A stretch of 54,266 nt of DNA from NCBI GenBank assembly GCA_019894665.1, contig JAGXOC010000005.1, positions 6,724-60,989 of the forward strand. Direction: 5' to 3'. The notes below the pieces were generated by a model. It was given only the letters and a program-made list of their open reading frames with translations. It was not told the DNA's origin and searched no databases. The translations under genes were made by a program, and so were the position numbers. This document shows, piece after piece, positions 39,758-41,725 of the stretch. Each line of letters begins with the position of its first letter. Within the stretch, counting starts at the first letter, position 1. This DNA comes from Candidatus Thorarchaeota archaeon. GTDB taxonomy: Archaea > Asgardarchaeota > Thorarchaeia > Thorarchaeales > Thorarchaeaceae.

Positions 39758-40237
39758 CTAACCTCTTGGTGGTCGAGGCATGCCTTTCAAAGTTTCAATA
39801 TCCTCAATCCACTTTACCAATTCATTGCTAATTCCGTTGATGTATTCTACTAGCACCTGTTGATATTTTCGCAAATGGTGCTGCTCCAGCTTTTTTGATT
39901 TTGCAAGGAAGTCCTTAGCTCTTCTTGGAAATCCCGTTGACCACCGTCGAAGACTGAGCTCAGCTTTTCTGTCCTCAAGTATCTTCTTCGCCACACGGAT
40001 TGTACGTCGCTTAGCGATGAGATCTTCAAGTAACTTCTGGAGTGTGATGGTTGCTGCTACAAGCTCTTTGGCATCTAGTTTTGCATCCTCATTACGACTG
40101 GTGTAGTAGACTCGTTTGAGGTCTCTTTTGGCTGACATCACATGCGTCAGAAGCCTTGTCAATGAATGAACCATGGCATCTTTCTGTTGTGTCCGTGACG
40201 TAAAAAGGTCTGTGTTGCTATATCCCCCAGCCGTCAA
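39758..40237 (-). CDS. Helical coiled-coil protein, downstream of split Cas4-like genes
   Basis: The protein of up to 159 residues is almost entirely charged helix (SAKRDLKRVYYTSRNEDAKL, LLEDLIAKRRTIRVAKKILE, LEQHHLRKYQQVLVEYINGI), basic overall, with a short PRPPRG tail. It contains no cysteine or membrane segment. I recognise no family. The TTG at 40235-40237 is only 3 nt after the upstream nuclease ORF; an ATG at 40174 is the alternative start. The spacing makes it the third gene of an operon with the two nuclease halves, so a DNA-binding or structural role in that system is a reasonable guess. Confidence 0.65.
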   Translation of the reverse strand: MTAGGYSNTDLFTSRTQQKDAMVHSLTRLLTHVMSAKRDLKRVYYTSRNEDAKLDAKELVAATITLQKLLEDLIAKRRTIRVAKKILEDRKAELSLRRWSTGFPRRAKDFLAKSKKLEQHHLRKYQQVLVEYINGISNELVKWIEDIETLKGMPRPPRG

Positions 40238-40240
40238 ATG

Positions 40241-40900
40241 TTAAGCTATGGAAAAATTGCATTTGCCGTTGCTATAGGGACATACTTTGCATCTACTTTG
40301 TTCCTGGGCAGGTCTGGGTTTTCGGCTGTGGTACCACACCTCATCCAATTTTCTGAGCTTTCTAAGCACACTCTTTGGTTTGAAGTGGTTCACGAATACC
40401 TTTCCATCACCACATTTCCAACATTCCCTGATTGATTTTCGATCCAGGCATCTCTTTGCATTGTCCTGCAGGCAATAGATTGTCACTAATCTTGTTGACG
40501 AACATGACGCACCACTATCAAGAAGTGCAAGTGCATAGAGCCCTGACTGAAACACATCCTCCTTTCTTGCTTGTTTTGGAAGATGTTTCACAGGAAACTT
40601 ATACTCGATGATAAGATCCAATATTGTTGCCTTTCTCCAATGAAGAACTGCACCATCAAGCCTTCCAACAAATCTATGACCCAATGACCTCACATTCTCT
40701 TCAGAGAAGAAATAATATTGATTTAGTTTCCTTCTATTGGTTTTAAATTTGAGGAACTCTGCTAGACTCCAAGGTGCTGAAATTGCCCTCCTCATCTTCA
40801 TTCCAATTGTAGCGAAACCCGTTCCTGGTTGTAATTTGAGAAGGAGAACTATTCCACTGATGAACACGACCATCAAGAACAGAGCAGCTAGGTTACTCAT
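40241..40900 (-). CDS. Cas4/RecB-like membrane nuclease, C-terminal half
   Basis: The 219-residue protein starts with a transmembrane helix (about 3-22) and continues with the PD-(D/E)XK core of the Cas4/Dna2 exonuclease group: FVGRLDGAV (Asp82), ILDLIIEYKFP (Glu99, Lys101) and the QSGLYALALL motif (Gln118, Tyr122). It then ends with the Fe-S cysteines CKVCPYSNGKC (204, 207, 214). The first cysteine of the cluster and the upstream His motif of Cas4 are not in this ORF but in the preceding one. The ATG is preceded by GGGTGAT, formed by the end of the upstream gene. It is not near any CRISPR array, so a house-keeping or repair role is more likely than CRISPR adaptation. Confidence 0.78.
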   Translation of the reverse strand: MSNLAALFLMVVFISGIVLLLKLQPGTGFATIGMKMRRAISAPWSLAEFLKFKTNRRKLNQYYFFSEENVRSLGHRFVGRLDGAVLHWRKATILDLIIEYKFPVKHLPKQARKEDVFQSGLYALALLDSGASCSSTRLVTIYCLQDNAKRCLDRKSIRECWKCGDGKVFVNHFKPKSVLRKLRKLDEVWYHSRKPRPAQEQSRCKVCPYSNGKCNFSIA

Positions 40901-40904
40901 TTAA

Positions 40905-41174
40905 TCACCCGAAAATCCACACGAATCCTGCAATTAGTATCAAGATAATTATCACCAAAGGTGCCAGTCGATTCTCTGTCTTCTCAACATTCAGCTTGTA
41001 TGACTGAATAGACACACGACTGTGTAGCTCTGTCCCGATTACGCTAGCTAGCGAATGAGTGTCTCCAAGTTTTTGCTTCAGATACAGACGATATTCGCAC
41101 TGAAACTGCGTTCTCAGTGCAGAAACTTCTCGCATCTTATGATAAGGTCCTTTTTCTGCCTCGCTTAGCCTCAT
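40905..41174 (-). CDS. Cas4/RecB-like membrane nuclease, N-terminal half
   Basis: The 89-residue protein contains VSALRTQFQCEYRLYLKQKL (Cys26, equivalent to the first Fe-S cysteine of Cas4) and SVIGTELHSRV (His51, the Cas4 His motif), and ends in a membrane helix (LAPLVIIILILIAGFVWIFG). By itself it lacks the catalytic Asp/Glu/Lys. Its stop is 4 nt before the ATG of the C-terminal half, and the two ORFs are in different frames with stop codons in both frames at the junction, so this is not a single indel. The two chains would together supply four cysteines and a two-helix membrane anchor. Confidence 0.72.
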   Translation of the reverse strand: MRLSEAEKGPYHKMREVSALRTQFQCEYRLYLKQKLGDTHSLASVIGTELHSRVSIQSYKLNVEKTENRLAPLVIIILILIAGFVWIFG

Positions 41175-41302
41175 AGCAGGTCAGAGTACTGTTTTTGACA
41201 ATCCTACAAAAGGACCACACATCAGACAAAACAGTAGAGATTCACTTATATTCGAGTTTGAGGAGTTACATCATCAGGATTTCGCTACGGAGACCAAAGC
41301 TG

Positions 41303-41725
41303 ATGTCAGACGAAACCTACGAAGGTGCAACCGCCGGAAAAGTATTAGTTTTTGATGCAAGTGAGACCGTTAAATTTCCATCTGCTTTCAAAAACGCTAT
41401 GGGGACCAATCAAGGTTTGATGGTTCTAGTGCACAAAGACCGACTCATCAAGATATTCCCCCTCGAGAGTGATGAAGTTTTATTCCTCAGTCTTGAGATT
41501 GGAAAACTCACAAATGACTTCTTGACCAAACTTTCTCAGATTTTCAAGAAGGCAGGTCTCGTTGATCTCTTATTCTCAACGGGAGTGTGTCTCCGTGGAA
41601 CAAGATGTTTTTACGAGTGCTACTTTAACCCTGGACAACTCAGTTCGGATCTTGCTGAACTTGAGAATTCACTCAAGGTTCTAGATGGAGTTCAAAGAGT
41701 TGTTGTTGAACGGGTATCAGTTTGA
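41303..41725 (+). CDS. AbrB-like / ACT-like small regulatory protein
   Basis: The protein of 140 residues has an N-terminal part resembling a swapped-hairpin AbrB fold (KVLVFDASETVKFPSAFKNAMGTNQGLMVLVHKDRLIKIFPL) and a C-terminal alpha/beta part that looks ACT-like (EIGKLTNDFLTKLSQIFKKA, then DLAELENSLKVLDGVQRVVVE), with three cysteines between (CLRGTRCFYECYF). Both assignments are by eye. A transcription factor or ligand sensor is plausible. GGAGA lies about 9 nt before the ATG at 41303. Its stop overlaps the TTG start of the next gene. Confidence 0.6.
   Translation: MSDETYEGATAGKVLVFDASETVKFPSAFKNAMGTNQGLMVLVHKDRLIKIFPLESDEVLFLSLEIGKLTNDFLTKLSQIFKKAGLVDLLFSTGVCLRGTRCFYECYFNPGQLSSDLAELENSLKVLDGVQRVVVERVSV

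Follow-up and report, generated by a model that had tools for sequence, protein, structure and literature searches.

Cas4 proteins (DUF83, PF01930/TIGR00372; among them Sso0001, Pcal_0546 and the structures 7mi4 and 8d3l) combine RecB motifs I, II and III and a QhXXY motif with one N-terminal and three C-terminal cysteines (PMC4176176, PMC3466216), and their cleavage needs the residues of motif II, motif III and QhXXY (PMC4176176). Upon removal of the Fe-S cluster, cleavage persists in single-chain Pcal_0546 and SSO1391 and is abolished in SSO0001 (PMC4176176). The archaeal solo-Cas4 genes are reported to be CRISPR-independent, mainly vertically inherited and under ordinary selection (PMC5704561), features that they share with the locus described here. 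In the accounts cited above Cas4 proteins are single chains, as is EXO5 (PF09810; human 7lw7–7lwa) in its structures, whereas the predicted Thorarchaeota enzyme consists of two chains with a hydrophobic helix each. The locus lies in a stretch of 54,266 nucleotides of a Candidatus Thorarchaeota archaeon (contig JAGXOC010000005.1), referred to in full as the window. We hold, with a probability of roughly three in four, that the pair forms a two-subunit, membrane-tethered RecB/Cas4/Exo5-type iron-staple nuclease that acts outside CRISPR and clears linear DNA.

Results and Discussion

The N half (89 aa, positions 40905..41174, minus strand) carries the segment VSxLRxQFxCEYR with Cys26 and the segment G-x-x-LH with His51 (RecB motif I), and ends in a putative transmembrane (TM) helix at about residues 70–87, followed by two residues and a TGA stop. 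The C half (219 aa, 40241..40900, minus strand) starts with a putative TM helix at about residues 4–22 and continues into a PD-(D/E)XK core comprising E67, G79-R-x-D82, E99-x-K101, Q118-x3-Y122 and the cysteines C204, C207 and C214. The junction (40898..40909, minus strand) reads TGA-TTAA-ATG, with the C-half ATG 4 nt past the N-half TGA and with a TAA of the C frame immediately before this ATG, so that both frames are closed. The N stop lies within GGTGAT, which matches the Shine–Dalgarno (SD) consensus. Thus the original prediction of two ORFs, one with a hydrophobic end and one with a hydrophobic start, with stops in both frames at the junction and with an SD for the second ORF, was borne out, and so was its assignment of Cys26 and His51 to one chain and of the Asp/Glu/Lys and Q-Y residues and C204-x2-C207-x6-C214 to the other, all of which proved invariant as well. 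Two features had been missed at that stage: a second invariant group of four cysteines in the C half (C143-x7-C151-x8-C160-x2-C163; 40412..40474, minus strand), a possible second metal site, and a third co-directional gene of 159 aa (39758..40237, minus strand), 3 nt downstream of the C half and without a known family. On the other side, the 176-aa ORF (41195–41725, plus strand) probably starts, going by its homologues, at ATG 41303 and not at TTG 41195, leaving about 128 bp to the N-half start.

The two ORFs are two adjacent genes, conserved within a single Asgard family whose members mostly bear the name Ca. Thorarchaeota. A real C half is present in 37 of the 47 family genomes (cut by a contig end in one, G028), and the N half is recognisable directly upstream on the same strand in 36 of these 37, uninterrupted in 34; a fused ORF occurs in none of the 37. 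Protein searches of 59 genomes, the window's own included, returned the C half in 31 (one being a remnant) and the N half, at E values up to 0.1, in 30 (two being fragments), with best homologues in other genomes at E 6e-115 and 4e-36, respectively, well outside what chance would give. When 227 Asgard genomes were searched by profile, the C half turned up in 38 of the 47 family genomes, a mere remnant in G007 among them, and three of the 180 other Asgard genomes gave weak matches to its C-terminal part; among the non-family matches at E up to 1e-3 none was a fused version with a membrane hairpin. This search for a fused form covered the 227 Asgard genomes, and other phyla through one pattern scan of genome contigs, which gave 27 loci titled Thorarchaeota (25), Lokiarchaeota (one) and "archaeon" (one). 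A contig titled Candidatus Lokiarchaeota (L084, JALVPN010000094.1) has the pair in the same gene neighbourhood; its matching genome, G027, belongs to the window's family, and the title is probably wrong.

Base-by-base reading of 29 pairs puts the C frame at an offset from the N frame of +1 in 17, of +2 in 10 and of 0 in two (L020 and L028, each with a single TGA between the halves), and the spacing between the halves varies. TGA serves as the N stop in 28 of the 29, and GGTGA spans it in 22. The same split is found in two single-contig genomes, G034 and G036. The three different offsets, the zero offset with a stop between the halves, exclude assembly error, frameshifting and general readthrough. 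Where dS is finite (five of eight pairs for the N half and six of eight for the C half; dS exceeds 1 or is saturated in more distant pairs), dN/dS ranges from 0.08 to 0.25 across both halves and from 0.10 to 0.25 for the N half, which points to purifying selection on both. The claim of a true two-gene arrangement therefore stands, on the same split in independent assemblies, on varying frame relations, on the halves occurring together in other genomes and on a homologue search that yielded no continuous ORF.

These data bear on two simpler explanations of the split. That a sequencing or assembly frameshift, or decay of a single-chain gene, produced it in the window's genome has in its favour that the assembly consists of 442 contigs and that a single-base indel can split a gene, as well as the in-frame stop inside the N half of L107 and the broken N halves in three genomes of one genus; against recurrence of the split in 36 of 37 genomes, single-contig ones included, three frame relations, variable spacing, and halves that are each bounded by a hydrophobic helix and under purifying selection, we give it next to no credence. 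Recoding, by which both ORFs would be translated as one protein through frameshift or stop readthrough, might be read from the two in-frame pairs and from the near-universal TGA, yet 27 of the 29 pairs lie in different frames, which no single recoding mechanism fits, the window's C frame is closed by its own TAA, and the TGA preference follows from the overlap of the stop with GGTGA; we consider it very improbable.

Some N halves are damaged. In L107 an in-frame stop interrupts the N half, in L016 only its 3′ part is left, and in L106 nothing of it is visible beyond a piece of the helix, while the C half stays open in all three; this does not speak for strict interdependence of the halves, though the damage may be recent. 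The N half of L029 lacks the usual start codon upstream of its motif. The three same-genus genomes with a broken N half are G018, G029 and G225, with different break codons in G018 and G029. A TnpB-like end (PF07282) adjoins the breaks in L016 (G029) and L106 (G225) and a MerR-HTH resolvase (PF00239) that in L117 (also G029); in L115 (G018) visual inspection showed no more than a short stretch of similarity. A TnpB-like end and a MerR-HTH resolvase are features of IS607-type elements.

A hydrophobic helix is found in both halves in 27 of the 29 pairs, the exceptions being L018 and L029, in which the C start chosen by our script falls past the helix. Lysines and arginines flank the C-half helix asymmetrically (mean 3.0 after versus 0.17 before it), and the net charge after it is at least +1 in 27 of the 29 pairs, suggesting that the soluble C part faces the cytoplasm. 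The tail of the N half past its helix is in most pairs one or two residues long with almost no lysine or arginine, and the stretch before the helix has 1.9 such residues on average at a net charge of about zero; its orientation is tentatively assigned, mainly because the N half must meet the C half.

The closest relatives by profile comparison, reached through the weak matches outside the family, are Exo5/Cas4-like proteins that other Asgards have as one chain (L123, L124 and L127; L125 and L126). The N-half profile aligns with columns 45–92 of an alignment of these five (hhalign, pairwise E 2.9e-8, probability 95%) and the C-half profile with columns 121–280 (pairwise E 3e-9, probability 96%). 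The relatives thus contain both segments in order, and since the segments follow one another, the break falls between motif I (His) and motif II (Asp), where the two hydrophobic helices of the pair stand. They differ from the pair in being one ORF, in the absence, judged by eye, of a hydrophobic pair between the segments, and in having no second four-cysteine group. L123 passes PF09810 (27.4 bits versus a cut-off of 25) and has no match at E 1e-4 among the 47 genomes of the window's family. In L125 (560 aa) and L126 (548 aa), also single-chain frames, the first Fe-S cysteine is missing and a long extra C-terminal part is present.

A joined model was built from the natural in-frame pair L020 with its TGA read as Trp (pLDDT 80.1, pTM 0.71); its confidence drops in the N part, with block means of 88, 76, 73, 67 and then 45, and its helix part is poorly informed because in the underlying alignment the helix columns of the N rows overlie the C-row helix. 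The model of the window's C half alone has a pLDDT of 83.6. The best structural match of the joined model is Cas4 7mi4 (Z 12.7, 162 residues, rmsd 3.5, chain 5–203), to which the C half alone matches with Z 10.8 over 136 residues (chain 54–199). The joined model is also predicted to share the PD-(D/E)XK fold of human EXO5 (7lwa: Z 10.7, 171 residues, rmsd 4.0, 18% identity) and matches MGME1 with Z 11.1. In the main structural matches the range covered is longer for the joined model than for the C half alone: 70–357 versus 147–351 for EXO5 7lwa, 120–334 versus 212–334 for MGME1 8xa9, 785–1039 versus 890–1039 for AdnA 9np6, and 19–202 versus 63–202 for SSO0001; for 4r5q, 5zyw and 5yeu it is not shorter for the C half alone. 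Judged on these main matches, the N half would contribute the roughly 50 initial residues that the C half alone lacks from the fold, a comparison that is biased in that a joined chain forces the halves close together and the two models come from different species. With Foldseek the joined model has three matches at E up to 0.001, to Cas4 and MGME1, at low TM-scores (normalised by query length, none above 0.33 in the first 50 rows). On these models, the two chains are predicted to complement each other into one Cas4/Exo5 fold.

By score, the pair lies outside the curated Cas4 and Exo5 families. Both halves stay below the cut-offs of all curated Cas4 and Exo5 profiles, and Pfam has no match to the window's N or C half. 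TIGR00372 reaches 17.2 bits (cut-off 65). PF01930 matches two of 28 C halves (best E 0.027) and scores 12.9 bits on P0001 (cut-off 22.7); PF09810 matches three of 27 N halves (best E 0.013) and one of 28 C halves (E 0.23), with 12.2 bits on P0001 (cut-off 25). The PD-(D/E)XK superfamily profile PF12705 matches seven of 28 C halves at E up to 1 (best 2.7e-4), the window's C half not among them, and gives 22 bits on P0001 at a cut-off of 22. The PADLOC Cas4 model aligns with C-half residues 55–211 at E 1.7e-5. Against PDB sequences the C-half profile has EXO5 as its only plausible match (E 0.0011), and the N-half profile has chance-level matches only. The designation of the pair as a Cas4-like nuclease split in two is thus upheld as homology to successive segments of a single-chain protein and by the fold comparison, and fails as curated Cas4 membership by score; Exo5 and Cas4 being about equally close, Cas4/Exo5-like is the safer name.

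The residue set nonetheless matches that of Cas4, divided over two chains: H51 on the N half, D82, E99-x-K101 and Q118-x3-Y122 on the C half, and the four Cas4-type cysteines as C26 on the former and C204, C207 and C214 on the latter. Invariant in 27 aligned N halves, the window's included, are L20, Q23, C26, L32, G47 and H51; not in this alignment are L016, whose N half is interrupted, L021, which the motif search had missed, and L029, without the usual start codon. In 28 aligned C halves, again with the window's and without L021 and L025 (cut by a contig end), E67, G79, D82, E99, K101, D115, F117, Q118, L121 and Y122 are invariant, and so are G130, Y142, C143, Q145, A148, C151, C160, C163, C204, C207 and C214. 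The second four-cysteine group, which the pair has in addition to the Cas4 set, sits between the QxxxY helix and the putative Fe-S cysteines, is not conserved in the alignment of the five single-chain Asgard relatives, and may form a Zn or a second Fe-S site. The extra cysteines and the membrane anchoring are unusual for a nuclease, and one Cas4 descendant has become a viral nucleocapsid protein (PMC4625639), so that one may think of a pseudo-nuclease, in which a membrane Fe-S/Zn protein with a structural or sensory task retains the fold but no longer catalyses. Against this stands the invariance of all of H51, D82, E99, K101, Q118 and Y122 in the aligned sequences, which include the motif II, motif III and QhXXY positions required for Cas4 cleavage (PMC4176176), and we regard loss of catalysis as improbable.

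The pair is flanked by a divergent block (the 176-aa protein, a VTT protein, a CpXC protein and INO1) and by aRF1, PheS, PheT and a Ras-like GTPase. In 27 named loci the 176-aa gene is present in 24 and the 159-aa gene and aRF1 in 25 each; the gaps coincide with contig ends in L065, L073 and L081 and not in L066 and L074. No repair or defence gene was recognised near the pair. The 159-aa gene occurs in 41 of the 47 family genomes and in none of the 180 other Asgards; its usual place is immediately downstream of the pair, and in G221 it lies about 12 kb away. Its role as an obligate partner is unsupported, as it is kept where the pair has been lost and lies apart in G221. Loss is seen in four genomes, all of which retain the 159-aa gene and none of which keeps an intact half: in G007 a single deletion joins N codons 1–18 to the last C-half codons (scar L116, 1207–1325), neither half is left in G025 and G035, and in G018 the N half is truncated and the C half was not found. 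The pair is therefore dispensable, having been lost in at least four genomes. Six further genomes are uninformative on loss, as the 159-aa gene is likewise absent (G001, G004, G017, G222 and G224) or cut by a contig start (G223).

As the original prediction had it, there is no CRISPR context: neither Cas4 (PF01930) nor Cas1 (PF01867) was found in the window's genome, and Cas1 was found in 11 of the 47 family genomes and not in the other 36; a CRISPR link was rejected on these grounds. A mobile-element or viral origin was also rejected: of eight pattern stretches in viral contigs none was confirmed, no relatives were found in phage records, and a plasmid search gave one match, at E 1. Dispensability, the mostly fixed position and the absence of Cas1 from those 36 genomes together speak for an accessory role on the chromosome and apart from CRISPR, as has been proposed for solo Cas4 (PMC5704561). 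A narrower form of this reading is a specific anti-virus nuclease acting on membrane-injected DNA. Tethering would put an exonuclease at the site of DNA entry, solo Cas4 has been suggested to serve in uncharacterised kinds of defence or repair (PMC5704561), and the halves are less conserved than their neighbours (in L061, 70% identity for N and 74% for C versus 78–92%). The pair, however, mostly keeps its place beside aRF1/PheS/PheT and not in a recognisable defence island, with E 1 as the limit the PADLOC matches are to the Cas4 model and, weakly, to Cas1g (E 0.03), and dN/dS is low; we deem so specific a function unlikely, if worth keeping in mind.

For the broader reading, a two-subunit nuclease that clears linear DNA, we propose the following mechanism. 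What is a single chain in the relatives would be broken in the loop that joins RecB motif I (His) to motif II (Asp), with one TM helix on each side of the break, and both chains would probably be translated in a coupled fashion from one mRNA. The helices would lie side by side in the membrane and the soluble parts dock in the cytoplasm, where His51 of the N half and Asp82, Glu99, Lys101, Gln118 and Tyr122 of the C half would form the metal site. Cys26 and Cys204, Cys207 and Cys214 are predicted to hold one four-cysteine Fe-S cluster assembled across, and stapling together, the two chains, so that the enzyme would work only once both pieces have met in the membrane. Its substrate would be free-ended DNA, probably single-stranded, degraded at the cytoplasmic membrane face; by analogy with Sso0001, as reported in PMC3466216, the activity may be that of an exonuclease directed at single-stranded DNA ends. 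The role would be a dispensable, chromosomally encoded clearance of linear DNA, either incoming or membrane-associated. A more speculative extension, which we put forward as doubtful, is that the cluster is a reversible staple: when present it would lock the chains and complete the active site, its loss under oxidative or iron stress would part them and switch the enzyme off, and the second four-cysteine group would hold another metal. If so, the enzyme would, through being split, need the cluster to be active.

Conclusions

To our knowledge, fission in the middle of the catalytic domain, with an active site and a metal cluster shared by two helix-bearing chains, is undescribed for Cas4/Exo5/AddB iron-staple nucleases. 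Among the literature matches listed there was no report of such a split enzyme, and the main text of the solo-Cas4 study (PMC5704561) has no "split", "truncated", "Asgard" or "Thorarchaeota" and uses "membrane" only when naming another gene. We file the pair as one that would work like a Cas4/Exo5 iron-staple nuclease but breaks the single-chain rule and stands outside the curated Cas4 and Exo5 families by score. As such it would be a natural two-piece enzyme for testing whether the disputed Fe-S cluster of Cas4/Exo5-type nucleases is structural or regulatory, and an Asgard archaeon would thereby have a predicted DNA exonuclease at its membrane.
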